Assembly: GCA_018716115.1 (NCBI GenBank)
Contig: DVKF01000019.1
Span: forward strand, 1-37,323
Direction of reading: 5' to 3'
DNA length: 37,323 nt
Source: Candidatus Alloscybalousia intestinigallinarum
GTDB lineage: Bacteria > Bacillota_I > Bacilli_A > RF39 > UBA660
Below the pieces are notes generated by a model, which did no database searches, was not told the DNA's origin, and worked only from the letters and a program-made list of their open reading frames with translations. The position numbers and the translations under genes are program-made. This document shows positions 437 to 30,071 of the stretch, piece after piece (the first letter of the stretch is position 1; every line of letters starts with the position of its first letter).

Positions 437-1726
437 ATGAAAAATAAGCATCTTTCCGCAACAGATCGTAAAGATATAGAAGCAGGTTTAAACAAAAACA
501 AAACTTTAACTGAAATAGCAAATAGTATTGATAAATCATATAATACTGTCAAATATGAAATTATAAATCATAGAGAAAAGAAATATCCATCTAATTTCAA
601 TGGTAATAGAAATTTATGTATGTATTTTAAAGATAGATCTTGTAAAATAAAAGGTTTATGTAATATTGAACCTTGTGATAATTTATGTAGATCTTGTAAA
701 AGACATTTCTGTAATAATATATGTCTTAACTATAAAGAATATCTATGTGAACGCCTTACTAAAAAGCCATATGTTTGTAATGGTTGTAAATCAGCCAAAG
801 AATGCTTTAATGTTAAAATGGTTTATTTAGCAAAGCGTGCAAATATAGAATACCATGAGTCCCTTGTTAATTCAAGAAAAGGGCATAGATTAACTGAAGA
901 AGAAATTGATTATGCTAATACAGAGATAAAAAGGCGAATTAAAAATGGTCAATCTTTAGATGCTATTGTTAAGACTGACGATAACATTAAAAAATGCACA
1001 TCTTCTTATTATAATTATACAAATGATGGTATTTTTGAATTCAGAAATATTGATTTAGTTAAAAAAGTCAGTTATAAGAAAAGAGATAAAGATAAAAAAG
1101 AAAAAGATATACCTGATGAAGAAAAAAATAAAATTCAAAAGCTTAAGGTAAATAGAAACTATGATTGTTTCGTTATCTTTATTAACAAACATAAAGATTA
1201 TAAAATTACTGAAATGGATACTGTTATAGGAAAAACAACCGATAAGAAAGTTGTATTAACTTTATTATTTAGAAAATCAAATTTTATGATAGCAATATTA
1301 CTAGATAATAAAACAGCATCAAAAGTAAATAAAGAACTAAATTTATTGAAGAAAAAATTAACTACAGAATTATTTATACTTTTATTTAGAATTATGCTAA
1401 CTGATAATGGTGTAGAATTTACAATGATAGAAGAAATAGAGACTTTAGAAGGTGACAATCAAATAAATTTATTTTTCTGTGATCCTGGCAAATCAAATCA
1501 AAAAGGAAAGATAGAAAAAAATCATGTAGAACTTAGAAAAATATTACCTAAAGGGACTACTTTTAATAATTTAACTCAAAAAGACATTAATTTAGTTATG
1601 TCACACGTTAATAGTTACCCAAGAAGATTATTAAATTATAAAAGTCCATATGAAACTTTAATAGAAGAAATTGGCAAGGAAAAAGCAGATTTTATTATGA
1701 ATGTTTTTCCCAATTGTTATCTTTAG
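437..1726 (+). CDS. IS30-family transposase (C-terminus probably fused or altered)
   Basis: Product of 429 residues. An N-terminal helix-turn-helix (residues 1-45) is typical of IS30 enzymes and would bind the element ends. A cysteine-rich stretch follows at about 60-125, of the CxxC type seen in Mollicutes/Clostridia IS30 relatives. The DDE catalytic core is visible: Asp in EMDTVIG, Asp in LTDNGVEF, Glu in GKIEKNHVE. SD GAGGT lies 11 bases before the ATG at 437, but an ATG at 432 is better placed and reads only ATG AAA TGA, overlapping this start. The last residues after about 415 do not look like a usual IS30 end and lie over the antisense radical SAM gene, so the true 3' end and right terminus seem lost. 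Function is confident; current activity is doubtful. Confidence 0.88.
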   Translation: MKNKHLSATDRKDIEAGLNKNKTLTEIANSIDKSYNTVKYEIINHREKKYPSNFNGNRNLCMYFKDRSCKIKGLCNIEPCDNLCRSCKRHFCNNICLNYKEYLCERLTKKPYVCNGCKSAKECFNVKMVYLAKRANIEYHESLVNSRKGHRLTEEEIDYANTEIKRRIKNGQSLDAIVKTDDNIKKCTSSYYNYTNDGIFEFRNIDLVKKVSYKKRDKDKKEKDIPDEEKNKIQKLKVNRNYDCFVIFINKHKDYKITEMDTVIGKTTDKKVVLTLLFRKSNFMIAILLDNKTASKVNKELNLLKKKLTTELFILLFRIMLTDNGVEFTMIEEIETLEGDNQINLFFCDPGKSNQKGKIEKNHVELRKILPKGTTFNNLTQKDINLVMSHVNSYPRRLLNYKSPYETLIEEIGKEKADFIMNVFPNCYL

Positions 1727-2549
1727 TTGAGTAATGATATAAGTTCCAAAAAATATTCTTTATCTTATTATCTATCAACCATTCTAAAACTTCATCTTCA
1801 TTTTCGACAACATCAGGCGTAACAGTAGCAGAGACACAATAACTACTATTCATATCATTAAGTAATTTGATAGAATTCATAGCCTTTTCATAAACGCTTT
1901 CATTTCCAGATTTAAAAATTCTGTTTTTATCATTGATAAATTTAGGCCCATCTATAGAAATTCCAATACCAATATGGTGGCTCATTAAATATGATATAAT
2001 CTCTTTATTTAATAAAGTCCCATTTGTAATAATAGTTAGTGTAATATCAGATTTCTTTTCATCTTGAATATAGTTTATAATATCTTTTATAACATTCCAA
2101 TTTGTTAAGGGCTCTCCGCCATAAAAAATTATTTGAGAATCAACAATTTCATTTTTATCTAATTCTGCCAAAAATTTATCTATAGCAATTTTAGCTGTCT
2201 CGAAACTCATTTTTTCGTATTTTTGACTCGATAATGGGCTATTTTCGATAAAACAATATTTACAAGCAAGATTACAGTAAGTTGAAACATTTAAATACAT
2301 AATTGTTGGTATTTTTGCTTGCTTGTGTATACCTGTCTTTAATACATTATAAATATCTTCCATATCAGAAGTAGTTTCATAAATTCCATTTTCAATCATT
2401 ATTTTTTTTTCATCTTCGCTTAATTTAAAACTTTTTATATCATCTAATTTTTCTTTTTTAACATAAATAATTTGCATCAAAATAGAATTAAAAACAGCTA
2501 TATATTTATTATTCATTTCAATATAATGAAAATATTTAGATAATTTCAT
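1695..2549 (-). CDS. Radical SAM protein, C-terminally truncated
   Basis: Product of 284 residues. Cysteines 92, 96 and 99 form the CxxxCxxC motif that ligates the S-adenosylmethionine-cleaving 4Fe-4S cluster, and a GGEP motif follows. The N-terminal 80 residues resemble the leader domain of SPASM-type maturases (anaerobic sulfatase-maturase or peptide-modifying enzymes). Relatives usually exceed 400 residues and end with a cysteine-rich SPASM domain; here the protein stops after WEKHS, inside the 3' end of the opposing transposase gene, so the auxiliary-cluster domain is missing. Last gene of a tight operon: SD AGGAGG, two bases after the preceding methyltransferase. No precursor peptide is visible nearby, so substrate is unknown. 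Probably non-functional as it stands. Confidence 0.85.
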   Translation of the reverse strand: MKLSKYFHYIEMNNKYIAVFNSILMQIIYVKKEKLDDIKSFKLSEDEKKIMIENGIYETTSDMEDIYNVLKTGIHKQAKIPTIMYLNVSTYCNLACKYCFIENSPLSSQKYEKMSFETAKIAIDKFLAELDKNEIVDSQIIFYGGEPLTNWNVIKDIINYIQDEKKSDITLTIITNGTLLNKEIISYLMSHHIGIGISIDGPKFINDKNRIFKSGNESVYEKAMNSIKLLNDMNSSYCVSATVTPDVVENEDEVLEWLIDNKIKNIFWNLYHYSTKDNNWEKHS

Positions 2550-2550
2550 A

Positions 2551-3306
2551 TTACTTCCTCCTTATAATTATAATTTGTTTTCTACTTTTGTTAGAAATTG
2601 GTTCAAAATTATAATCTCCATATTGTTTAATAACATTAAAGCCATAATGATTTAGTATCATCAACAATTCCTGATGAAAAAAAATTCTATTAGGCAAAGT
2701 TTCTTTATGAATAATTTTATTATTAGTTATATATTTTTTTTCATAAACACATGTTGAGTTAATTGAGTCAAATATTTTATTTTCATAAACATCTACTCGT
2801 TGCTTATGAAATTGAAAAGTATTTGTGTGATAAAATTTCTTTCTATCACTTAAATCTTTAACTTGTGGTAGTATTGTGTCAATTACAATAATTGTATTTT
2901 CATCACTCAATTTTTTTATATTATTAAAAGCCTTTCCCAGATCATGTGGACTATAAAAATTATTTATAACATTAAATGGTAATATAATTAGATCATAAGT
3001 TTTATTTAATTTACATCTTTTTAAATCCTGATAATATAAATGAACATTACTATAGTTAAATTTTTTCTTGCAATAGTTTATAATTTCAACTGAGAAATCA
3101 ATACCATCATATTCTTCTACCATTTCATGTAATAAATTGATTAATCTTCCATTGCCTATTCCAACTTCAAGCATTGTTCTAGGATGATACAGACTTACTA
3201 TTTTTGGCCAAAAGTAAATATCATCTTTATAATCTGTAAATTCACATATGTATAATTTTGGCTTGCTATAAAGCTGTTTAATATAATAATTATAATTATG
3301 ACTCAT
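2551..3306 (-). CDS. Class I SAM-dependent methyltransferase
   Basis: Product of 251 residues. The SAM-binding motif I is MLEVGIGNGRLINLL at about residues 45-59, with the acidic motif II (YDGIDFS) about 20 residues later and a DLIILPFNVINNF motif IV-like segment at about 110. This is the Rossmann-fold methyltransferase pattern; the acceptor cannot be read from sequence. The start overlaps the end of the upstream RlmA-like gene by 11 bases, with SD AAGG inside that gene, and the stop is directly followed by the radical SAM gene, so the three are translationally coupled. It could act with the radical SAM enzyme on a common small molecule or peptide; that is inference. Confidence 0.8.
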   Translation of the reverse strand: MSHNYNYYIKQLYSKPKLYICEFTDYKDDIYFWPKIVSLYHPRTMLEVGIGNGRLINLLHEMVEEYDGIDFSVEIINYCKKKFNYSNVHLYYQDLKRCKLNKTYDLIILPFNVINNFYSPHDLGKAFNNIKKLSDENTIIVIDTILPQVKDLSDRKKFYHTNTFQFHKQRVDVYENKIFDSINSTCVYEKKYITNNKIIHKETLPNRIFFHQELLMILNHYGFNVIKQYGDYNFEPISNKSRKQIIIIRRK

Positions 3307-4138
3307 CTTTAATCCTTAAAACGTATATATTCAAGGCAATGGTTATTGATTTAATATTCGGAATATCTGCAACATGATTTGTCAACGGTGTCATGTTAAC
3401 TAAATATTGTAATTGTTCTTTATCAAGAGGATAGCAATTCATAATTTCTTTTTTCATCAAAACATCATATTTTTCTTCAATATTATGTTCAATTATCAAT
3501 TCATTTTCATAATCTTTAATATTTAATGCTTTACGTAATTCATATAAATATTCATGTTTAGGAGTAACTTTAATTATCATACCATTTTTTTTCAAAACTC
3601 TTGCCATTTCTTTTTCATTAGCTGGAGACAATATATTTAAAATTAAATCTATAGTATTATCTTTAAATGGAAGTTGGTTTAAATCGCCAACTATTCCAAT
3701 ATACGTATCATTAAGAAAATCATTAGACAAGTCTATAGCATCCTTAGATAAGTCAATACCAATTAACTTTATATTTTTATTAACTAAATGATTTATAATT
3801 TTAAAATCATGAGTACCTTCACCTGAACCCATATCCAATATGGTTTCAATATTATTTTGATTAATTATTTTACTTATCTCAGAATGAAGATTATCATAAA
3901 ATCCACAATTGATAAATTTTCTTCTATTGATAAATAAATTACTATTATATATTTTACTTTTTTTAAGTTTTGATGTTTTGTAAAGAATTACTGTTCCCTT
4001 TTTTGAAATATTAAAAGTATGATTATTAGAACAAATTATACTATTATTTTTAATGTTTACTGAAGTAGAGCAAAAAGGACACGAAATTATTGTATGAATA
4101 TCATTCAAATATTTATTAGCATAATCAATTTTTTTCAT
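3296..4138 (-). CDS. RlmA/TlrB-like 23S rRNA guanine-N1 methyltransferase homologue
   Basis: Product of 280 residues. The N-terminus has a zinc-binding CPFC...C.NNH pattern (residues 20-40), as in RlmA(I)/RlmA(II), followed by a SAM site DMGSGEGTHDF at about 103 and a typical family stretch LSPANEKEMARVLKKNG. RlmA enzymes methylate G745 and TlrB methylates G748 of 23S rRNA, the latter giving macrolide resistance. Which base this one uses, or whether it still targets rRNA, cannot be told. First gene of the operon, SD AGGAGGT, preceded by a TATAAT box. Location in mobile DNA makes a resistance or self-protection role plausible but unproven. Confidence 0.78.
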   Translation of the reverse strand: MKKIDYANKYLNDIHTIISCPFCSTSVNIKNNSIICSNNHTFNISKKGTVILYKTSKLKKSKIYNSNLFINRRKFINCGFYDNLHSEISKIINQNNIETILDMGSGEGTHDFKIINHLVNKNIKLIGIDLSKDAIDLSNDFLNDTYIGIVGDLNQLPFKDNTIDLILNILSPANEKEMARVLKKNGMIIKVTPKHEYLYELRKALNIKDYENELIIEHNIEEKYDVLMKKEIMNCYPLDKEQLQYLVNMTPLTNHVADIPNIKSITIALNIYVLRIKDES

Positions 4139-4163
4139 ACAATACCTCCTTTATTCGTCAAAT

Positions 4164-4192
4164 ATTATAACATAAAAAAAAACTTTAGTATA
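4164..4192 (-). promoter_or_regulatory. Promoter candidate for the methyltransferase/radical SAM operon
   Basis: On the minus strand a perfect TATAAT (4164-4169) lies 26 bases before the start codon. The -35 position at 17-bp spacing reads TATACT (4187-4192), which is poor, within a GTGTATAC sequence. The -10 is convincing; the -35 is not. Confidence 0.45.
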
Positions 4193-4218
4193 CACTTGTT
4201 AATGTCAATATAAAAATG

Positions 4219-4280
4219 CCTTAATTTTAAAGTTAAATTTCAGTTTTGGAGTAAAGTGAAATTTAACTTTAAAATTAAGG
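4219..4280. terminator. Perfect 24-bp-stem hairpin, right copy of the 47-bp repeat
   Basis: Arms 4219-4242 and 4257-4280 are perfectly complementary over 24 bases, with a 14-base loop. T-rich runs follow on both strands (TCTCTTTTT on plus, CATTTTTATA on minus), so it could terminate transcription from either side. Bases 4219-4265 are identical to 130-176. The site fits a bidirectional terminator used as an insertion target. Confidence 0.75.
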
Positions 4281-4306
4281 TCTCTTTTTAATCTTGTCAA
4301 AATATG

Positions 4307-4335
4307 TTGCGGATACATATCAAATATGCTATTAT
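4307..4335 (+). promoter_or_regulatory. Promoter of the candidate small RNA
   Basis: -35 TTGCGG (4307-4312), 17-bp spacer, -10 TATTAT (4330-4335). The expected start, about 4342, coincides with the base of the first RNA hairpin. Confidence 0.55.
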
Positions 4336-4341
4336 TATATT

Positions 4342-4443
4342 GTCAGATGACACAAGTGCAGTATAGTAGTATCGTGTTTATCTGATTCAACCGAAGTTTG
4401 GTTGAGTAGTAGATCGTCTGCTAGTATAGGGACGATTTTTTTT
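4342..4443 (+). ncRNA. Candidate structured small RNA of about 100 nt with intrinsic terminator
   Basis: Three hairpins in a row after a good promoter. Hairpin 1: CAGAT (4344-4348) with ATCTG (4380-4384), continued by ACAC/GTGT around a 20-base loop. Hairpin 2: TCAACC (4387-4392) with GGTTGA (4400-4405). Hairpin 3: ATCGTC (4413-4418) with GACGAT (4431-4436), followed by nine T bases. No reading frame covers it. I do not recognise the family; it may be a copy-control or regulatory RNA of the neighbouring element. It points toward, and is convergent with, the gene ending at 4497. Confidence 0.55.
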
Positions 4444-4496
4444 ATGATAAAATGTCTTTATTTATATATAGTTTAGGGTGGCACTGCTAATATATA

Positions 4497-5042
4497 TTAA
4501 TTACTACTTTTTAAATCTTTTTCATACTTATCTTTCCATTGATAGTATGAGATACTTTCTGATATAGCAAAATATCTTAAAGCAATCCACATAAGAGTAT
4601 CATAGAATTGCTCTTCTCTTAAATCAGTTGAAAAGCAATACTTTTTTAATATATCAACATCTATTGGCAATTCTAATTTTCTATCGTGATGTCCTATAAC
4701 TTTAAATAAGATGTCATTTGCTACATTATCTCCCTCTTCAACAACTGCATCAAAACCATCTCTTTTACTTGAATAATAATCTGTAAGTTCATCAACATTT
4801 CTTGAAACTTTACTATATATATCCATAGTTAAAGATTTTTTTAACTTTTCCAGTTGTTTATTGATAATCAAACTTAAAACTTTGTCTTTCTTATCATTTG
4901 GAAGGCTGTCAACTACATCAACTAGATTTTTTAAATCTAAATCTAGCACCTCTTGAATCTTAACTAAATCATTTTCCATTGTTTTAGAAATTGATTCTGC
5001 CAATTCTTCTTCTTTTAATTCTTCATTAATATTTTTTTTCAT
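4497..5042 (-). CDS. Hypothetical protein of the small mobile element
   Basis: Product of 181 residues, not recognised. It is acidic and charged with a predicted helical N-terminal half (residues 1-75, many Glu/Lys/Leu) and a more globular C-terminal part ending YYQWKDKYEKDL. No signal peptide or membrane segment. SD GGAG is well placed before ATG. It is transcribed away from the double-HTH regulator gene, with a palindrome between them, so it may be under that regulator's control. I assign no function. Confidence 0.6.
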   Translation of the reverse strand: MKKNINEELKEEELAESISKTMENDLVKIQEVLDLDLKNLVDVVDSLPNDKKDKVLSLIINKQLEKLKKSLTMDIYSKVSRNVDELTDYYSSKRDGFDAVVEEGDNVANDILFKVIGHHDRKLELPIDVDILKKYCFSTDLREEQFYDTLMWIALRYFAISESISYYQWKDKYEKDLKSSN

Positions 5043-5123
5043 AAATTTAGCTCCTTCGTTATATACCCTAAACTACAATCATAATTATATCACGTTTTTA
5101 TAAAATGACCCAGAGTTTTGCTA

Positions 5124-5151
5124 ATAATTTTCATATTAATGTGAAAATTAT
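5124..5151. promoter_or_regulatory. Palindromic operator candidate between divergent genes
   Basis: Perfect inverted repeat with 10-bp arms ATAATTTTCA (5124-5133) and TGAAAATTAT (5142-5151), and an 8-bp spacer. It lies directly before the ribosome binding site of the XRE-type regulator and 81 bases before the divergent gene. Autoregulation by the HTH protein is the obvious inference. Confidence 0.55.
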
Positions 5152-5168
5152 ATTGGGTGATTTTTAGA

Positions 5169-5594
5169 ATGATGAATAATAATCTCAAATTTTGTAGAGA
5201 AGAACTTGAAATGACACAAAAGGAACTAGGTAATGTATTTGGTGTTTCTTTTAAAACAGTTGCTGGATGGGAAAATAGTCATGATACCATGCCTTTAACT
5301 AAATTAGTAAAATTTTGTAATTTATATAAGTTTTCAATAGATTATGTAACTGGATTATCAAAAGTTAATAATTATGTAGAACTAGATAAATTAGACCGAG
5401 TAAAAATTGGTAACAAACTAAAAAGAATTAGACAAAAACTTGGACTAACACAAGAAACTATTGCTTCAGAATGTATGATTTCTCAAGCGACTTATAGTGG
5501 CTATGAAAATGGAAAATATTTAATAACTTCACTATGTCTATATACAATTTGTTATAGCCACAAAATATCAATGAATGACATATTAAAAAAATAG
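5169..5594 (+). CDS. Double helix-turn-helix (XRE/Cro-CI type) regulator
   Basis: About 141 residues with two XRE-type DNA-binding domains in tandem: residues 5-60 (MTQKELGNVFGVSFKTVAGWEN) and residues 78-138 (LTQETIASECMISQATYSGYEN). Two HTH_3 units in one chain are less common than one; such proteins are often repressors of integrative elements. I chose ATG at 5169 because the upstream GTG at 5157 is part of the Shine-Dalgarno GGGTG. It ends one base before the convergent replication-like gene. Likely controls the element and itself through the palindrome upstream. Confidence 0.82.
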   Translation: MMNNNLKFCREELEMTQKELGNVFGVSFKTVAGWENSHDTMPLTKLVKFCNLYKFSIDYVTGLSKVNNYVELDKLDRVKIGNKLKRIRQKLGLTQETIASECMISQATYSGYENGKYLITSLCLYTICYSHKISMNDILKK

Positions 5595-5595
5595 T

Positions 5596-6372
5596 TTATC
5601 TATCAATATCATAGAAACTATCAAATAAGTCATCTTCTCCCCATAGATCTTCTATGTTCTGATTTAATTTGTTTATATTACTAATAATAGAGTTTTTAAA
5701 ATAACCAAATTTATTTTTAATTATATTTCCATCTTCATCTCTAAAACCTCTTTTAACAACTCTAGGAACAATATAATGGACAATTTGTATCAAATCCTTA
5801 TATGAATTATTTTCTTCTAATAACTTGTTAAACAAATCATCATAGTAAAATATTTGTATATCATTTTCGTTTATATATCCACTATCTATTAATTCTAATG
5901 TTAGTCTATTATGTTCTTCAGCAACAAAAAAAGATGATAATTTCGTTTTATCATCTTTATCTATTTGTTTTTTAGTATTTATTATATTAGTATTTATTTG
6001 TGTAGGCTCTTCCACATCTGGAATATCCAGGTGTGGATTTTCCGTATCTGGATATTCTTTATCATTTTCTAGTTCAACAAAGTGTGGTATTTCATAAATT
6101 AAGTAATTATATTCAAAATAACCTTTTTCTCCTCTAACTTTTTCTATTTCTAAATAATGATACTCTTGCAATTCCTTTAATATGGATCTAATTCCATCTC
6201 TACCCTCTTTACTTATTGAACAAAGACCTGCCAAAGAATAATCCCAATCTTCTGGCAAACTTAACATAAACGATAATAACCCTTTAGCTTTATACGATAA
6301 ATTTTTATCTCTTAAATGATAATTAGACATAACAGTATAGTTATTATTCTTTTCTATTTTAAAAACTGACAT
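5596..6372 (-). CDS. Replication-organiser-like winged-helix protein of a mobile element
   Basis: About 258 residues. The N-terminal segment (FKIEKNNNYTVMSNYHLRD, KAKGLLSFMLSLPEDWDYS) is the conserved start of helix-turn-helix proteins found next to integrases and recombinases in Clostridia/Bacilli elements and phages, with winged-helix residues to about 95. A linker rich in Asp/Glu/Thr (110-150) leads to a C-terminal domain with FGYFKNSIISNINKLNQ, reminiscent of DnaD/replisome-organiser tails. Start set at ATG 6372 because GGAGGTG just before it is inside the longer frame. It lies 25 bases after the 66-aa gene, same operon. Role in element replication is inferred from family and context. Confidence 0.7.
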   Translation of the reverse strand: MSVFKIEKNNNYTVMSNYHLRDKNLSYKAKGLLSFMLSLPEDWDYSLAGLCSISKEGRDGIRSILKELQEYHYLEIEKVRGEKGYFEYNYLIYEIPHFVELENDKEYPDTENPHLDIPDVEEPTQINTNIINTKKQIDKDDKTKLSSFFVAEEHNRLTLELIDSGYINENDIQIFYYDDLFNKLLEENNSYKDLIQIVHYIVPRVVKRGFRDEDGNIIKNKFGYFKNSIISNINKLNQNIEDLWGEDDLFDSFYDIDR

Positions 6373-6397
6373 TTTTACACCTCCAAACAAAAAACAA

Positions 6398-6598
6398 CTA
6401 TAAAGTTGTCTTTAATTTATTATACTTTTCTTTTGCATTTTCTAACTTATTAAATTCTTCGCTATAAATTAACTTTATATTGTCTTTACTTACAATACAT
6501 TTTTCTACAATAAATTTATTACCTTTTTTAACAATTGAAATAATAATACAATTGTTACCTATAATCATTTCATAAACATCAATTAATAATTCTTTCAT
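6398..6598 (-). CDS. Small hypothetical protein, 66 aa
   Basis: Short protein with alternating hydrophobic and charged residues (IDVYEMIIGNNCIIISIVKKG...) suggesting a compact beta-hairpin plus C-terminal helix; no known family recognised. SD GAGGTAGGAT lies between the recombinase stop and this ATG, three bases apart, so it is co-translated with the recombinase. By position it might be a directionality factor or other recombinase accessory, but nothing in the sequence proves this. Confidence 0.6.
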   Translation of the reverse strand: MKELLIDVYEMIIGNNCIIISIVKKGNKFIVEKCIVSKDNIKLIYSEEFNKLENAKEKYNKLKTTL

Positions 6599-6601
6599 AT
6601 C

Positions 6602-8065
6602 CTACCTCTTAAATTCTACACTTTTAATAATTATCTTATCAGTTAATTTATCAACTTTAATAACCTCCACAAAACGTTCTAAAAACTGTTGTTTTTCCTT
6701 ATTTGTTAAATATCCCCAATTTAATTTTATATTAGTTACAATATCTTTAATATCATCATAAGAATACGAATCATTGCTATCCTCAATTATTTCATCTAGT
6801 TCTAAGATTTTTGACTGTTGTATATTCTGTTGTTTTTGTATTTCCTCAGTAATTTCATGATATTCATTTACATCTATCAAATCGTTAATAAACTGACTCC
6901 TAATAATTTTTTTCTTGTTTTCTAGTTTTTCAATTTTTTTATTAATTTCTTGTTTCTTTTTTTCAGAATTAATTATTTTTTTTCTTTTCTCCATAATGCT
7001 CTTATCAGGAACCATATTCTCTAAAGTATCTAAATATTCTAAAAATGCTTTTTCCATTGTCTTATGCGAAAAGCCTCCACATTTACAAAAACCTCTACTA
7101 GAATTATTACACCTATACGTAATATATAATTTGCCACTCTGAGTTTGTTGCCTAGCAGAAATATTACCTCCACAATTTGCACATTTTATAATATGAAAAT
7201 AATATGAATTTTCACTTGGATAACGTCTGACACAATATTGCTTTCTTGTTGCAATTATATTATTTGCTAATTTCCATTTTTCTTCATCAATTATTGGTTC
7301 TATGTCGTTACCATCAACAGTAAAAGATCTATCTTTATTTTTCTCTTGCACTCCATATCTTACTTTACCAACATACAATGGGTTATTAATTATTGATTTT
7401 ATTGTAGATGAAGCCCAATGTCCACCTCTCTTTGTAGGAACGTTTTCTTCATTAAATAAATGGGCAATTTTAAAATAAGACTTACCATCTATATATAAAT
7501 CGAAAATTCTATTAACTAAATCTTTTTCTTCTTCATTTACAATTATTTTTTTCTCTCCTACAATATAATCGTACCCATAAACACCATTAGTATTAGTATA
7601 ATTACCTTCTCTAGTTTTTTGTTCATAACCAAAAGATACTCTTTCAGCAAGATTTTCCCTTTCAAACTCTGCAAAAATACCAATAATTTTTACAAACATT
7701 CTACCCACAGCATTAGATGTGTCAATTTTTTCGGTTTGAGAATTAAAAGTGCAACTGTGTTTTTCAAACAACTCTATTAAATAAATTAAATCTCTCACGC
7801 TTCGTGTTAATCTATCTAGTTTATATATTAATATATTATTTATTTTCCCATCTTCCACATCTTTAAGCAATCTAGTTATTTCAGGTCTATCTTCTAAATT
7901 TTTACCACTTATTCCATCATCAACATAGTAATCAAAAATATCCCAATCGTTTGCCTCAGCATACTTGGTTAATTTTTCTCTTTGTGCATGAATTGAGAAA
8001 CCATCTTTTGCTTGATCCTCTGTTGAAACACGAATATAAATTCCTGTAACTATTTTTTCTTCCAC
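6602..8065 (-). CDS. Large serine recombinase (site-specific integrase)
   Basis: Product of 487 residues, normal size for the TndX/phiC31-type family. The N-terminal resolvase domain starts GIYIRVSTEDQ, with the nucleophile Ser14, and has conserved YKLDRLTRS and FAEFERENLAER motifs. The Recombinase domain follows (GVYGYDY...VPTKRGGHWASSTIKSIINNPLYVG), then a zinc ribbon with CANCGG ... C...CKCGG, then a coiled coil (about 370-420). It catalyses integration and excision through a covalent serine-DNA link. Start is GTG with SD GAGGAG eight bases upstream. Attachment sites could not be defined. Confidence 0.95.
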   Translation of the reverse strand: MEEKIVTGIYIRVSTEDQAKDGFSIHAQREKLTKYAEANDWDIFDYYVDDGISGKNLEDRPEITRLLKDVEDGKINNILIYKLDRLTRSVRDLIYLIELFEKHSCTFNSQTEKIDTSNAVGRMFVKIIGIFAEFERENLAERVSFGYEQKTREGNYTNTNGVYGYDYIVGEKKIIVNEEEKDLVNRIFDLYIDGKSYFKIAHLFNEENVPTKRGGHWASSTIKSIINNPLYVGKVRYGVQEKNKDRSFTVDGNDIEPIIDEEKWKLANNIIATRKQYCVRRYPSENSYYFHIIKCANCGGNISARQQTQSGKLYITYRCNNSSRGFCKCGGFSHKTMEKAFLEYLDTLENMVPDKSIMEKRKKIINSEKKKQEINKKIEKLENKKKIIRSQFINDLIDVNEYHEITEEIQKQQNIQQSKILELDEIIEDSNDSYSYDDIKDIVTNIKLNWGYLTNKEKQQFLERFVEVIKVDKLTDKIIIKSVEFKR

Positions 8066-17741: not shown

Positions 17742-18683
17742 ATGAGCAAAAAGATTAGCCAAGACTTGTTTATCTGTCTACTTTTGACAATTACCGTATC
17801 CCTAGTTATCTTTTCTAATGAAGTCATTCAAGCAGCTTCGTTTTCTCTTTCTATTTGGATAGAAAATCTCTTTCCTACTTTATTTCCTTTTTTTGTTGTG
17901 TCTAATTTATTACTTCGTTATGGTTTTGTCGAATCCCTTGCCGCATCGGTTGGGAAAGTAATGCCTCGTCTTTTTCATCAGCCGCAAGAAAGTAGCTTTG
18001 TCCTTTGTCTCAGTTTAATTTCTGGTTTTCCTAGTGGAGCGAAATACAGTAAAGAGTTGGTAGAAGCTAAGAAAATCACACCCGAAGAAGCCTCGCGATT
18101 ACTAACGTTTACTCATTATTCTAACCCCCTATTCATTTTAGGACTAATCGGTAATCTACTCTTAGGAAACCAAAAACTAGGATTGATTATCTTAGTTTCT
18201 CACGTATTAAGTGGATTACTAATGGGGATAATTTTCGCGAAAAAGACTTCATCAATTTCAGAAAAAGAGCCAAAAAAAGCTTTTTTCTCTACTAAGCAAC
18301 CCCTAGGGACAGCTTTAGCAAATAGTATTCAAGATGCCCTATCGACCTTATTTCTCTTACTAGGAATCGTCACTATCTTCCTCGTTTTATCGACAATCAT
18401 TGAACAGTTTTTCCCGCTTAACCCCTATTTAAAAGCAATTATATTTGGAATTTTAGAAATGACTCAAGGTGTAAAAACCATGAGTATTCTTCCAGTTACA
18501 GAATTCGTTAAAACCATCTGGATAACGATTTTTATCTCTTTTGGTGGCTTAAGCGTTCACATGCAAGTACTAAGTATCATCAGTGGAACCAAAATAAAAT
18601 ACAAGTATTATTTAGAAAGTCGTCTTTTACATGCGATACTTTCCGCAATACTTGTATCTTGCTTATATTTATTATTAATCTAA
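17742..18683 (+). CDS. ylbJ: Sporulation integral membrane protein YlbJ
   Basis: Product of 313 residues with about eight hydrophobic segments and the Gate/nucleoside-recognition pattern of YlbJ: LFPTLFPFFVVSNLLLRYG near residue 50 and GFPSGAKYSKELV near 100. YlbJ is needed for heat-resistant spores in B. subtilis; the transported molecule is unknown. It diverges from ylbL over 46 bases, where a TATAAC (17719-17724) is a possible -10; the ribosome site (AAAGAAG) is weak. Its last four bases overlap the end of the convergent prepilin/glycine-rich gene. Confidence 0.9.
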   Translation: MSKKISQDLFICLLLTITVSLVIFSNEVIQAASFSLSIWIENLFPTLFPFFVVSNLLLRYGFVESLAASVGKVMPRLFHQPQESSFVLCLSLISGFPSGAKYSKELVEAKKITPEEASRLLTFTHYSNPLFILGLIGNLLLGNQKLGLIILVSHVLSGLLMGIIFAKKTSSISEKEPKKAFFSTKQPLGTALANSIQDALSTLFLLLGIVTIFLVLSTIIEQFFPLNPYLKAIIFGILEMTQGVKTMSILPVTEFVKTIWITIFISFGGLSVHMQVLSIISGTKIKYKYYLESRLLHAILSAILVSCLYLLLI

Positions 18684-20251
18684 ATTCCTAGATAAGTAAC
18701 TCTAGCATAACCATTACCATCATTACCAATTTCTACGTTAGTAATTCCATTATTTGGCATGATTACTTTTTCGTCTGTTTTTTCCGTTGTCCATTTATTT
18801 CCGTTACCATCAATCATTAAAGTATTGTTGAATACAAAATCAACATACTCTGAACCAGTCTGATGAGTAATTGCCGTAGAAGTAGAACCTTGGGAAATTG
18901 CTCGACAACCATTATGACCAGATATGTAAGAAGAACCACCACCTGCTCCACCGTGACCACCAGTACCACCGCTATACCAACCACCACCGGCTCCGCTTTG
19001 TGAACCAGGCATTGTCAAAGTTCCGAATGTTCCTGTTTCTTTAGAAGTAAGTAAAGTATTGCTTGCATCAAATCCCTTTTGAATTCCACCGCTTGTCTGT
19101 GTACCACCAGTACCATAATAATGTTCAGTTCCACCACTATATCCAGCTGAAGCTAAATATTGTTCACTAGTACCAACGCAATTACTATCGTCACCATTTA
19201 AACAGCCACCGGCTCCGCCATCACCGGAACCATAAAGGACTAAATCGGTTGCGGAAGTTACGTTACGATAATTGGCGCCCCCGCCACCACCAGCTACCAT
19301 AATTCGTGATTTTAAACTGTCGAAATTATTCCAAGCACCAGAAACTAATCGTACGTCAGTTGCACCTCCACCAGATGCGCCAAAAGCTTCCTGACCACTT
19401 GTTAAATCACCACCACCGTTCCAACCACCGATTGACGACTGACTGCCTTCGCCACCGACATAGAAGTAAAGAACTTGGCCTTCTTGTAAATGAATATATC
19501 CACTTGTATAACCACCTAAACCACCTTTATATGGACCAACATCACCACCAGAAGCACCCCATAGTTCAATTCTATAAGTACCTGTTACTGGAATGGTATA
19601 GGCCTGGACATTGCCAGTATAAGCAAAATCTTTGGTATAAGAATTAGTCGTTAATACATCGTTATTTGTCGCAACAATGTGAATACCAAAATCATCATCG
19701 AAATCAATATGTTCAATATAAATATCGAGTGAATAAATCTTAATCTCCGTACCATCAGATAAAATCGTACTATCTACGGATAAAAAGTCAGAATCACTGA
19801 CAAATATCGATTGAAATTCCCCGGGTTGTCTACCATTAGGAATTGTTTTAGGTAGAGTATCTTCGATTGGATACTTAGTATCTCCATAACGAATATACTT
19901 ATTTAAAACAGAATCCCGATTACTAATATCGATCTTAGAAACCGCTAAAATTTTCTCTACACCGGTTTTAAAAACAATATTACTACATGAACTAAACTGA
20001 CCACTATACTCGCTAGAAGTACAATCGCCACCATGATTAATATCAGCAACACCAAGTGTCATAATATCATCTTGAATTTCTTTAGTAATCGTATTTTTAT
20101 AAGTCGATAAATCTAAGTATGTTAAATTGGTCTGCATCTTATTTCGATAATTCATAATCAAAGCTAAAATACCAGCTACAATTGTCATAATCAAAGCAAA
20201 AGTCAATACTACTTCGATAACCGACATTCCCTTTTCATTCAATTTTTTCAT
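18680..20251 (-). CDS. Prepilin-like protein fused to an ALK/LTK-type glycine-rich domain
   Basis: About 523 residues from ATG 20251, chosen because GGAGG precedes it by five bases. The N-terminus KLNEKGMSVIEVVLTFALIM is a type IV prepilin/pseudopilin signal: cleavage after Gly, Met+1, Glu+5, then a hydrophobic helix. Residues about 40-215 form a pilin-like region with two CxxxC-type cysteine pairs. From about 225 to 500 there is a Gly-rich domain with GTYRIELWGASGG, ASGGGATDVRLV, SRIMVAGGGGGA and GGAGGGSSYI, the hallmarks of the Gly_rich family found in animal ALK/LTK receptors and some bacterial surface proteins. Likely a pilus-tip or surface adhesin; its function is unproven. Pairs with the prepilin gene one base upstream. 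Confidence 0.82.
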   Translation of the reverse strand: MKKLNEKGMSVIEVVLTFALIMTIVAGILALIMNYRNKMQTNLTYLDLSTYKNTITKEIQDDIMTLGVADINHGGDCTSSEYSGQFSSCSNIVFKTGVEKILAVSKIDISNRDSVLNKYIRYGDTKYPIEDTLPKTIPNGRQPGEFQSIFVSDSDFLSVDSTILSDGTEIKIYSLDIYIEHIDFDDDFGIHIVATNNDVLTTNSYTKDFAYTGNVQAYTIPVTGTYRIELWGASGGDVGPYKGGLGGYTSGYIHLQEGQVLYFYVGGEGSQSSIGGWNGGGDLTSGQEAFGASGGGATDVRLVSGAWNNFDSLKSRIMVAGGGGGANYRNVTSATDLVLYGSGDGGAGGCLNGDDSNCVGTSEQYLASAGYSGGTEHYYGTGGTQTSGGIQKGFDASNTLLTSKETGTFGTLTMPGSQSGAGGGWYSGGTGGHGGAGGGSSYISGHNGCRAISQGSTSTAITHQTGSEYVDFVFNNTLMIDGNGNKWTTEKTDEKVIMPNNGITNVEIGNDGNGYARVTYLGI

Positions 20252-20252
20252 A

Positions 20253-20873
20253 CTAACCTCCGTATTTACTTTTATAGATACCGATATTGGCATATCTTGT
20301 TTCTGTTGTTCCATCAATTAAAGGAACCGTTCTAGAAATAAACAAACGATATACTCCTGTAGCTTTATTGGTACTATCTCCAGGATTATAAAAAATTTCG
20401 TTATCCGCAACCGTTTTTAAATAATCTCGAAAATTACTTAGTTTACCAGAATCAAAATATTCATTTTCATTCACAAAAGTACGAAAACTAGTATTTGTTT
20501 CATGTAAGGTATTAGAAAGGTTATATTTAGTAAGTAATACCACATCATTATCCTCGATATGAAGACTACTTTTCAATTTAGTACAATAGCTAGCGTCTCG
20601 ATAATAAGTAGTATCATTACAATTACTAATATCCAAATACGTTGCATTCTGTAACTTCTCATCGACAATAGTGAAATCTACATAGTTGGTAATCATTCTT
20701 TTCATCATATCGGCAGCATACACACTATCGATATCATCAAAATTTTGCATTTTCTCATACTGTCCCATCATAGGTACACTGTTTCTGTATACAAAGACAA
20801 AAATTGACATGACAAATACTGTAACAATCAGTGTTTCTAAGAGGACAAACCCCTTTTGGTTTATTCTTTTCAT
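20253..20873 (-). CDS. Type IV prepilin/pseudopilin
   Basis: Product of 206 residues. KRINQKGFVLLETLIVTVFVMSIF is a class III prepilin leader: short basic leader, Gly before the cut, Phe+1, Glu+5 and a hydrophobic helix to residue 30. The remaining residues form a globular domain with a CxnC pair (DISNCNDTTYYRDASYCTK). It would be processed by a prepilin peptidase, not seen in this window. First gene of a two-gene unit with the glycine-rich prepilin, divergent from the ATPase gene; together these suggest a small pilus or secretion machine, of which the other parts lie elsewhere. Confidence 0.82.
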   Translation of the reverse strand: MKRINQKGFVLLETLIVTVFVMSIFVFVYRNSVPMMGQYEKMQNFDDIDSVYAADMMKRMITNYVDFTIVDEKLQNATYLDISNCNDTTYYRDASYCTKLKSSLHIEDNDVVLLTKYNLSNTLHETNTSFRTFVNENEYFDSGKLSNFRDYLKTVADNEIFYNPGDSTNKATGVYRLFISRTVPLIDGTTETRYANIGIYKSKYGG

Positions 20874-20994
20874 AAATTCACTTTCCTTTATTGATTATCT
20901 CTAAAATTTATTATATAATAATTTAATGTAAAATACCATAGGAAAAAACAAAAATATATAAGAAGAAAAAGGATAAGGCTTAAGGTGATTAAAA

Positions 20995-22260
20995 ATGGTG
21001 AAATATGATGTTGAAAATATACCTATAGTAGATTTGGTAAATAAAATTATTCTAGTGGCGGTAAAAGCACGTGCTTCCGATATTCACTTTGATCCGTTAG
21101 AAGATGGGTTAAAAATTCGAATGCGGGTTGACGGAAATTTACAGGATCACACCATTATTCCTAAAGATAATGAAAGAAATGTTGTTACCAGAGTAAAATT
21201 GATTTCGGGAATGAATATTACTGAAAATCGTCTTCCTCAAGATGGAGCGATTAAAGGTAGAATTGATAATATTGATTTGGATATGCGTGTATCTGTTCTG
21301 CCAACTAACGAAGGAGAAAAAGTCGTTATTCGTATCCTCGACTATAGTAAAAGTTTGGAAGGATTACATAGTCTAGACTTCTCTCCTGTTAATTATGATA
21401 AAGTCTTACAGATGTTAGCAGTACCTAACGGAATCATCCTAGTAACTGGTGCGACTGGTAGTGGTAAATCAACGACAACCTACTCTATGTTACAATCCTT
21501 AAACCATGAAGAAACTAATATTATTACAGTTGAAGATCCAATTGAAATGAATATTGAAGGAATCAACCAAGTTCAAGTAAATAGTGAAATCGGTATGACC
21601 TTCGCGGCTGCTCTTCGTTCAATCTTACGTCAAGACCCAAACGTTATTCTAATCGGAGAAATTCGCGACTCCGAAACAGCAAGAATTGCCGTACGTGCTT
21701 CAATTACTGGACACCTTGTACTTTCTACCATCCACACCAACAACTCATTAGCTACCATCGAAAGATTACTAGATATGGATGTAGAACGTTACTTGCTTTC
21801 TACTGCATTAGAGGGAATCATCTCTCAAAAACTAGCTAGAAGAATCTGCCCAGTTTGTAGAACGATTAGACCAACGACTCCATATGAGCGAAAAGTATTA
21901 AAAGATGCTTTAGGATTAAACGTTAATGAAATGTGGGTACCTAATAAATGCGAACACTGTATTAATGGTTTCTTAGGTCGTATCGCAATTCAAGAAGTGC
22001 TATTAATCAATGAAGAAATCCGAGATATTATCAGTAAAGATGAAACCGACAAAGAAACCCTTCGTGAATTCGTATATGGAAAAAATCATACCATTACTCT
22101 ACTACAAGACGGATTGGATAAAGTCGTAAAAGGCTATACTACTTTTGAAGAGATTTATAAACTAGTAGAAATCGAAGATGATGCGGATTCTAAAGTTGCC
22201 GAAATGAATATTGAAGATGAACTAGCCATGAGAGAAGAAGAAAAAGAAAAAAGCGATTAA
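20995..22260 (+). CDS. PilB/GspE-family assembly ATPase (short form)
   Basis: Product of 421 residues. It starts directly in the N2 domain (VDLVNKIILVAVKARASDIHFDP), so the usual N1/MshEN domain of PilB or GspE is absent, as in ComGA; an in-frame stop before the ATG rules out a longer start. Walker A GATGSGKSTTTY, Asp box, Walker B DPNVILIGEIRD and His box GHLVLSTIHTNN are intact. The CPVC...CEHC zinc motif near residues 286-325 is the one present in PilB/GspE. It would power pilin assembly for the divergent prepilin genes. No inner-membrane platform protein (PilC/ComGB) accompanies it. Confidence 0.93.
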   Translation: MVKYDVENIPIVDLVNKIILVAVKARASDIHFDPLEDGLKIRMRVDGNLQDHTIIPKDNERNVVTRVKLISGMNITENRLPQDGAIKGRIDNIDLDMRVSVLPTNEGEKVVIRILDYSKSLEGLHSLDFSPVNYDKVLQMLAVPNGIILVTGATGSGKSTTTYSMLQSLNHEETNIITVEDPIEMNIEGINQVQVNSEIGMTFAAALRSILRQDPNVILIGEIRDSETARIAVRASITGHLVLSTIHTNNSLATIERLLDMDVERYLLSTALEGIISQKLARRICPVCRTIRPTTPYERKVLKDALGLNVNEMWVPNKCEHCINGFLGRIAIQEVLLINEEIRDIISKDETDKETLREFVYGKNHTITLLQDGLDKVVKGYTTFEEIYKLVEIEDDADSKVAEMNIEDELAMREEEKEKSD

Positions 22261-27339: not shown

Positions 27340-29936
27340 CTAGGCAACCACAACCGTTCCCCTACCATCCTCCAAGAGATTTTCGATAAAACTTTTCATG
27401 GTATTATCCATTACCGTAATTTGAACAGTAGGAGAAATTCCCAAAAGCATTTCGGTAGAATTGGTTACACTATTAAAGTTAGCGTTTCTAAGATCTAAAC
27501 TAGTTAAACTTCTACAATATGCTAACATTCTATATACATTTGTTACCTTGCTAGTATCAAAACTACTTAAATCCAAACTCTGTAATTCGTAGCAAAAAGC
27601 AAACATTCCTCCCATCTCCGTTACATTACTAGTATTAAAACTTTTTAAATTTAATGTAGTTAGTTTTTCACAACTTTCAAACATATTTACCATATTATTT
27701 ACATTTTGAGTATCAAAGTTATCAATGGATAACGATACTAGTTCTCGACATCGTGCAAACATTCCTGCCATTACAGTAACATTTGAGGTATCAAAATGAT
27801 TTAAATTTAATGTCAGTATATTACTACATTCATAAAACATATTTTGCATAGTAGTTACTTGACTAGTATCAAAATTATTGATATTTAATTCAACTAAATT
27901 AGTACACCCTTGGAACATATAATCCATTCTAGTCACTTTAGAAGTAACAAAACTACTTAAATTTAGATTAGTTAGACTGCTACAAGCAAAAAACATGTTA
28001 TACATATCAGTTACTTGCGAAGTATCGAAATGACTAACATCTAAACTAATTAAACTCTGACAACCACCAAACATAAATTGCATTTGCGTCACTTTAGAAG
28101 TAACAAAACTACTTAAATTTAGATTAGTTAAATTCCTACAATTATAAAACATATTATTCATAGTAGTAACATTTCCTGTATTAAAGCTAGAAATATTAAG
28201 AGAAGTCAAACTATTACAATTTTTAAACATATTTCCCATGCTTGTTACCTTAGAAGTATCAAAATTTGATAAATCTAATATCTCTAAGCTATTACAATCG
28301 TTGAACATTTCACTCATACCTCTTACATTAGAGGTAACAAAATTATCTAAATTAAGATTCGTCATTTTCTGACAACCCCTAAACATCGAGCTCATATTCG
28401 TTACTTTTTTAGTATCAAATTTAGAAACATCTAACACCGCTAAGCGATTACAACCATCAAACATATTTTGCATCGTCGTTACATTTGATGTATCAAATTT
28501 AGAAACATCTAAAGTAGTCAAACTCTTACAACCTTCAAACATATGGGACATATTCTCCACATTATGAGTTTTAAAGCTAGAGATATTTAACTCGGTTAAC
28601 GCATTACAATTATAAAACATATACTGCATATTCGTAACGCTATCTGTTATAAAACTACTTAAATTTAAACTCGATAACTTTTTACAATCAGCAAACATAT
28701 AAGTTAAATGAGTCGCTTTTGAAGTGTCAAAATTAATTTTCAAAGTTTCTAAATTACTACATCCGTTAAACATTTGTGAAAAACCATAACCCGTTACATT
28801 AGAAGTTTTAAAATGACTTAAATCTAGACTGGTTAAACTACTACAACCTAAAAACATTGTGCCCATATCAATTACTTTTTCTGTATTAAAACTACTAAGA
28901 TCTAACGTAGTTAAGTTGCTGCACCCCATAAACATAGCTGACATATAAATTACTTGAGAAGTATCTATGCCTCCTAAATCCAAGGTTTCAAGGCTAGTAC
29001 ACCCAGAAAACATCGAACCGAGATTAGTTACTTTTGAAGTATCAAAATGACTGATATCCAACGTTTTTAAGCTACTACAATTACCAAACATTAAAGCCAT
29101 AGACTCAGTTTGAGCCGTATCTAAATATTCTATTCCTTCTATACTTTCTAATTTAGTAAAATCATAAAACAAACCAACACTATTTACATTTGTATAAATT
29201 CTATCTTCAGCTTGAATATAAGCGGTATAAGTAGAAGAATCATTATTTCTTACTAAATAAGCCATAACACTACCATCACTCGTATCAGATATATCATAAC
29301 TATAAGAAACCGTTCCAACACTTTGCTTTTGATTTTGAAACACAACCTTAGTGATAGCATCTTTATGCTTCCATAACTTTTCGTTATAGTCCTCACTTTC
29401 CACTTTTTGTATCGTTCTTGTTCCCTCAATTACTTTTATAGAGTTTCCCTCTTCTAATATAATTTCTCTACCAATCAATCCTCCTTGTACCCCTAAATCA
29501 ATCGTAACTGGAGTATCATTCTTATTTTCTAATTCAATCACGATTGTTTTTGTCTCTGAAGGAGAAATTGATCCAGTCGGTAGATCCACAGTATTTATTC
29601 GAATTGTCTCAATACGAATATTCGCTCTTTGCTCCTCGGTTAAAGTTTTTAAAATCTGATAATACACTTTATATTGTGTATCTTTAGTATTATGACTAGT
29701 CACTTAAATAGTAATCTCCGTTTTAGAATTTCCTTCTAAAGTAAGCCGATTATTCTCTAAGTCTTCTGAAGTAATTGTATAATTAAGAATAACTCCTGCT
29801 AAGTATATCGCATCTTTATTTTCTTTTGTCTCCTTATAAAAAGAATACGACGAATTTATCAAACATAGGCATAAGAAAACACCTAGGCAAACAGATACTT
29901 GTGCTCAGGCTTCCAAGTAAATTTTCGTTTTTTCAC
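27340..29936 (-). pseudogene. BspA-type repeat surface protein with broken secretion signal
   Basis: The long open part (27340-29703, 787 residues) has a 180-residue beta-rich front (SETKTIVIELENKNDTPVTI) and then about 23 tandem DUF285/BspA leucine-rich-like units of about 24 residues, pattern LDLSxFDTSxVTxMxxMFxxC. These are surface proteins that bind host or matrix. The true start is probably GTG 29936 (SD GGTG, MKKRKFTWKP), but a frameshift near 29905 separates it from the hydrophobic part AQVSVCLGVFLCLCLINSS, and an in-frame TAA at 29704-29706 separates that from the 787-residue frame. No LPXTG or other anchor is seen at the C-terminus. Probably decaying. Confidence 0.78.
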
Positions 29937-30071
29937 TATTTACACCAATCCTTTTTCTCATAAATTCTTTGTCCTATTTTTCTATTTTTCCACTATTCTT
30001 ATCTATATTTTAACTTATTTTAGCTTTTCCGGTCAAGATGTTCCTATGTACATAGAAAATAAGCAAAAAGA

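Follow-up and report, generated by a model that had tools for sequence, protein, structure and literature searches.

A prepilin with an ALK/LTK-type glycine-rich domain beside a pilB-like gene in uncultured gut Bacilli, a candidate modular minor pilin

Introduction

Modular pilins are pilins onto which a functional module, likely exposed at the tip of the filament, has been grafted (Raynaud et al. 2021; PMC8179133). In S. sanguinis, two such proteins have been described, PilB with a vWA module and PilC with a lectin module (PMC8179133, PMC9934059). Other points of comparison for the locus reported here are the TNF-like plus glycine-rich (TG) domain in the extracellular part of the receptors ALK and LTK (PDB 7nx1, 7lrz, 7lir), the phage fibre tips of the same fold (Pam3 gp24 and the Bxb1 tail tip), and the ComG minor pilins and GspI-GspJ tip pseudopilins.

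We analysed a contig of 37,323 nucleotides (DVKF01000019.1, assembly GCA_018716115.1; hereafter the window) from Candidatus Alloscybalousia intestinigallinarum, whose genome is represented by a fragmented assembly of 65 contigs with ~91% completeness. One gene of the window, here named pilin2, joins a prepilin leader to a glycine-rich domain (GRD) of the ALK/LTK type (Table 1). Its product resembles the S. sanguinis PilB and PilC pilins in having a small pilin module, a class III leader, a short linker and a large C-terminal domain, and in belonging to a monoderm host. Unlike in those proteins, the module is an ALK/LTK-type GRD, which, to judge from the main text of PMC8179133, is not one of the 15 commonest architectures there. 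The genes of the system also lie apart, the two pilin genes next to pilB and those for PilC and PilD elsewhere, and PilM was not found. Phage fibre tips share the fold of this domain and form the far end of a filament in contact with a target surface, a place that pilin2 probably also occupies, but they are viral trimeric fibres with a smaller domain, which in Pam3 is assembled with the help of a chaperone. Weak profile matches to ComGD and ComGE, a weak fold match to EpsI-EpsJ and a minimal machine recall the ComG and GspI-GspJ proteins; the scores, however, fall below the family cut-offs, and the C-terminal GRD has no counterpart there. The closest known class is that of the modular pilins, of which the sequence-level features are all present, namely the leader, the pilus machinery and an extra C-terminal domain that is not pilus-specific, is absent from orthologous pilins and is joined by a short linker.

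Table 1. Features of the two-pilin locus, in coordinates of the window
Feature	Coordinates	Strand	Remarks
pilin2 (prepilin-GRD gene)	18680..20251	minus	523 aa; ATG at 20251, stop 18682-18680
Prepilin leader MKKLNEKG	20228..20251	minus	predicted cleavage after Gly8; no variation at Gly8 or Glu13 among 12 orthologues
Pilin module, residues 9-200	19652..20227	minus	helix 11-66 and beta-sheet (AlphaFold2); encoded alone in four sister species
TNF-like plus glycine-rich domain, residues 206-523	18683..19636	minus	preceded by linker ~196-205; Pfam and fold matches
Most variable GRD stretch, residues 335-420	18992..19249	minus	identity as low as 0.47 per 15 residues
pilin1 (partner prepilin)	20253..20873	minus	206 aa, KGFVLLETLIV; stop 1 base before pilin2 ATG
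Intergenic stretch pilB/pilin1	20874..20994	no strand	probable shared promoter region, judged from gene coordinates
PilB/GspE/ComGA-type assembly ATPase	20995..22260	plus	divergent from the pilin pair; PF00437, E=7e-118

Results

Leader and reading frame

The minus strand of positions 18680-20251 was found to be a single open reading frame, and a plus-strand reading of the same interval was ruled out by stop codons throughout. The N-terminus of the protein carried a class III prepilin leader, MKKLNEKG^MSVIE, in which Gly8 is followed by MSVIEVVLTFALIMTIVAGILALIM. The leader is short and basic, with Gly at -1 and Glu at +5, and leads into a hydrophobic stretch at the start of a helix. An earlier note on this DNA had called the leader canonical and had named a leader not conserved among homologues as a ground for refutation; the leader proved to be conserved, as Gly8 and Glu13 (the +5 position) did not vary across the 12 orthologues, whose identity over residues 1-200 went down to ~24%. 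The Pfam N_methyl model gave no score at E<=1 on this N-terminus, so that automatic annotation would overlook the pilin part, and surveys based on the standard motif would miss the lineage. A GGAGG motif (20261-20257) was located 5 bases upstream of the pilin2 ATG, within the last codons of pilin1, which together with the 1-base gap between the genes suggested that the two pilins may be translationally coupled.

Domain architecture and predicted fold

The C-terminal domain belongs beyond doubt to PF12810 (ALK_LTK_GRD), which matched residues 223-521 over model positions 7-243 of 243 (E=7e-42; 144.5 bits against a cut-off of 24.5) and was the sole Pfam match in the protein. In the AlphaFold2 model, built from 39 sequences (mean pLDDT 88.7; 73-83 in the other four models), a helix at residues 11-66 and strands up to residue 195 were followed by a low-confidence link at ~201-203 and by a domain at residues 206-523, mostly above 90. 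The first 21 Foldseek matches of the model in the PDB were all ALK/LTK glycine-rich domains (E 1.2e-8 to 3.7e-5), and the 22nd match had an E-value of 0.13. VIA-align returned LTK and ALK at Z 14.0-15.3, with 180-192 aligned residues at 24-29% identity, followed by two phage structures, the fibre of cyanophage Pam3 (Z 9.7) and the tail tip of Bxb1 (Z 9.2). A sequence search of the PDB with the single protein gave only a marginal ALK match (E=0.001).

The predicted fold is accordingly that of ALK/LTK, as the earlier note had proposed. The note had further described the family as one known from animal receptor kinases; the membership stood, and a restriction to those kinases did not, since bacteria and phages carry the domain widely: surface proteins of gut Bacilli often have it, and it also occurs in phage fibre tips, which are the nearer parallel in function. 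The PHROGs also contain related domains of unknown function. Pilin2 shares its fold and Pfam family with the ALK/LTK TG domain, but it is not an ALK/LTK receptor: it is bacterial and pilin-mounted, it lacks the EGF-like and tyrosine kinase domains, and there is no evidence for ligands of the ALKAL type.

For the pilin half within the full model, the best VIA-align match was the S. sanguinis minor pilin PilB, at a weak Z of 4.9 over residues 43-200 (noise level ~8). When folded alone, the pilin module reached a pLDDT of 75.5 and weakly matched S. sanguinis PilB (Z 3.9) and EpsI-EpsJ (Z 2.8), and Foldseek found no PDB match below E 0.4. Given the strong LTK/ALK match and the weak pilin matches, we regard the predictions as clear on the fold of the C-terminal domain and as suggestive of a pilin fold for the N-terminal module.

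Coming and going of the domain on a conserved pilin

The order pilB (divergent)-pilin1-pilin2 was kept in the genus and in other genera across the family, and in the genus it was followed by ylbJ and a gene for a SepM-like protease; the linkage to a PilB-like gene, for which the earlier note had suggested a genome survey, therefore holds across the family. Nine species of the genus carried the GRD on pilin2, and the same fusion was present on independent contigs of other metagenomes. In four sister species (G003, G004, G008 and G010), a bare pilin2 of 195-203 aa ended where the GRD would start, and in a fifth (G011) pilin2 bore another C-terminal segment in its place. The GRD-bearing species of the genus formed one clade in the PilB tree (100/99), with the five others outside, so that one gain or a few losses suffice to explain the pattern within the genus.

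As judged from pilin1 and pilin2 profile scores, the GRD outside the genus was located on pilin1 in L093, G371 (L182), G269 (L191) and G365 (L192), on pilin2 in G018 (L039) and L115, on both pilins in L143, and on neither in G033, G029, G123, G020 and G383. Among 395 genomes of the class, 31 matched the alignment at E<=1e-10, many of them over the pilin part only, and 30 of the 31 belonged to the window's own family. This distribution across relatives indicates that the pilin is the old, conserved part and that the GRD has been added to a minor pilin as an accessory module. The architecture shows a GRD on pilin1 to be a different fusion from one on pilin2. For pilin2, trees separated the window's genus from G018, L115 and L143, which no bootstrap (0 of 200) joined to it, and a single origin of the GRD on pilin2 was not rejected by the AU test (p 0.144); independent gains there are therefore not claimed. 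A search of viral contigs with the single protein as query returned no relative and hence no evidence that this copy of the GRD came from a phage.

The pilin1 proteins of G003, G004, G008, G010 and G011 (L166 9053-10231 and its equivalents) had an extra C-terminal module of ~190 residues. It was present where pilin2 lacked the GRD, giving a complementary distribution between the two pilins, and Pfam searches of the extra parts of pilin1 in G003, G004, G011 and others assigned no family.

Selection on the two modules

Comparison of the window with its three nearest relatives, for which some dS values were near saturation, gave dN/dS of 0.04-0.12 for the pilin module, 0.11-0.17 for the GRD and 0.16-0.34 for residues 335-420. 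The last stretch was picked after its variability had been seen, so that part of its excess reflects the choice of data. These values suggest that all parts of pilin2 are under purifying selection and that the GRD evolves faster than the pilin module. The glycine-rich core was strongly conserved. In the Pam3 fibre, the glycine-rich domain is described as having hypervariable distal loops, which have been proposed as the receptor-binding site (PMC9608196), and the pattern of variability in the pilin2 GRD is compatible with such loops.

The same domain on other proteins

Most other GRD proteins that we found lacked a pilin-like N-terminus, and many in the genus were secreted without a pilin part. 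The domain was also carried by canonical prepilins of the GFTLIE type, namely a protein of 1010 aa in G001 (L069), one of 830 aa encoded beside pilC and pilD in G007 (L071), one with tandem copies in G003 (L070) and one on a Coriobacteriales contig (L147). In addition, it followed NNKGFAISSMLYSILLLFLMLIVG-type N-termini, which have no Glu5, in L087, L090, L097, L108, L129, L136 and others. ComGG and GspK/PilX pilins lack Glu5, and the NNKGFAISSMLYSILLLFLMLIVG-type proteins are possibly ComGG/PilX-like pilins with the same module. Judging by their records, the GRD-bearing relatives were uncultured Bacilli/Mycoplasmatota, mostly from animal-gut metagenomes.

Pilus machinery of the genome

Pilin2 is the second gene of a two-pilin operon that is divergent from the gene of the PilB-type ATPase. 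With PilB in the window and PilC and PilD encoded together on contig C19, the assembly ATPase, the platform protein and the prepilin peptidase were all present in the genome. Besides PilB, one more distant ATPase of the T2SSE family was found in this ~91% complete genome, in a gene cluster of its own. PilM gave nothing above cut-off in this genome or in the members of the genus searched, and a PilT-type retraction motor was not found in this genome; the machine would therefore be minimal. No major pilin was encoded at the pilB-pilin1-pilin2 locus, and candidates were located on other contigs. The ATPase scored 266.5 bits with the ComGA model (cut-off 300), pilin1 matched ComGD weakly (24.1 bits; cut-off 70) and had weak PilV matches, and the ComGE model reached 14.3 on the pilins (cut-off 49), so that all three Com models remained below their cut-offs.

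Discussion

We propose, with a probability of roughly 0.7, that pilin2 is a minor modular type IV pilin displaying a ligand-binding head. The proposal builds on a leader, a two-module architecture, a domain fold, a conserved linkage and the presence or absence of the GRD on a conserved pilin, which were established from sequence or by prediction. Pilin1 and pilin2 would form a conserved two-gene minor-pilin cassette adjoining the motor gene pilB. Prepilin2 would be inserted by Sec and presumably cut by PilD after Gly8, and PilB and PilC would then build it into a pilus, by analogy probably at or near the tip together with pilin1. The TNF-like and glycine-rich domain would lie outside the filament and may bind a surface ligand, either protein or glycan, through its variable loops, by analogy with the ligand binding of ALK/LTK and the receptor binding proposed for phage tips.

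Pilin2 could instead be a membrane-anchored surface protein whose pilin-like N-terminus only serves as an anchor or sits in a short pseudopilus, with no extended pilus. The absence of a major pilin from the locus, the failure to find PilM and a PilT-type motor in the genome and the existence in the genus of many secreted GRD proteins that have no pilin part would fit such an anchor, but the conserved Gly-1 and Glu+5 matter for processing and assembly rather than for anchoring, and pilin2 stays next to pilB from genus to genus, which makes this reading improbable, though it is the strongest competitor. We give somewhat less credit to a minor pilin of a DNA-uptake (competence) pilus, in which the GRD would help to capture DNA or to stabilise the tip. 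ComEC was present in 17 of the 21 genomes searched, this one included, and a ComGA-like ATPase, the weak ComGD and ComGE matches of the pilins and minimal machinery are as in Com pili; the sub-threshold scores of every Com model speak against it, as does the variation of the GRD while ComEC persists (ComEC is present in G004, G008 and G011, whose pilin2 lacks the GRD).

It is very unlikely that the GRD only serves to build or shield the pilus and binds nothing. The strong conservation of the glycine-rich core and the lack of a known ligand would agree with this, but the fold is ligand-binding in ALK/LTK and has a proposed role in receptor binding at the tips of phage fibres, the presence of the domain differs between sister species, and its variable loops evolve faster. 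An artefact, either a chimeric contig or a chance fusion of two genes, would be conceivable in so fragmented an assembly, yet it is refuted for practical purposes by the occurrence of the fusion in nine species of the genus and on independent contigs of other metagenomes, and by purifying selection. Chance in particular is excluded because the frame and both halves are kept in these nine species, with dN/dS of ~0.04-0.17 among the closest four, and the place beside pilB is retained.

A broader idea, which we hold tentatively and at slightly less than even odds, is that pilB-pilin1-pilin2 acts as an all-purpose holder at the pilus tip, in which one binding head is exchanged for another from species to species, the GRD having moved on and off, from one pilin of the pair to the other and onto ComGG-like pilins that lack Glu5. 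If this were true, a small gut bacterium could retarget its pilus by the exchange of one cartridge.

Literature searches for PF12810 returned only unrelated matter, and those for "glycine-rich domain" with modular type IV pili, or for IPR055163, which we take to be the InterPro accession of the domain, returned nothing. The statement of the earlier note that no pilus with this domain has been described was in line with our search, which found none, although the 264 architectures in Dataset S1 of PMC8179133 might list one. Since grafted binding modules on pilins are already known (PMC8179133), pilin2 would represent a new module and not a new principle. It would extend the known binding heads of pili by a domain of the receptor type that is large and well defined, in uncultured gut Bacilli whose surface biology has received little attention, and would link one fold across three settings with binding surfaces, the receptor kinases of animals, the fibre tips of phages and the pili of bacteria. 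Because sister species carry this pilin either bare or with the GRD, they offer a natural comparison that makes the function directly testable.

Other pilins and features of the window

Prepilins elsewhere in the genome also bore large modules, such as a canonical prepilin of 670 aa with BspA-type leucine-rich repeats on contig C14 (G000; L063 4396-6408), another modular pilin of the window's genome. In a Bacilli MAG from water buffalo, six consecutive genes for canonical prepilins (L146 1234-11142) each encoded one or two glycine-rich domains. Several members of the genus (L171-L175) had a separate Tad/Flp-like cluster with TadE-like pilins, a ParA-like ATPase and a T2SSE-family ATPase, so that some of its species have a further filament system of type 4.

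Within the window, positions 27340-29990 of the minus strand encoded a DUF285/BspA-LRR repeat protein of 787 aa, read from a GTG; the frame upstream of it, in which a signal-like start lies near 29936, was interrupted by stops and looks like a decayed 5' end. Genes of mobile elements were located at 437-8065, including an IS30-type transposase-like ORF (437-1726) and a large serine recombinase (6602-8065).
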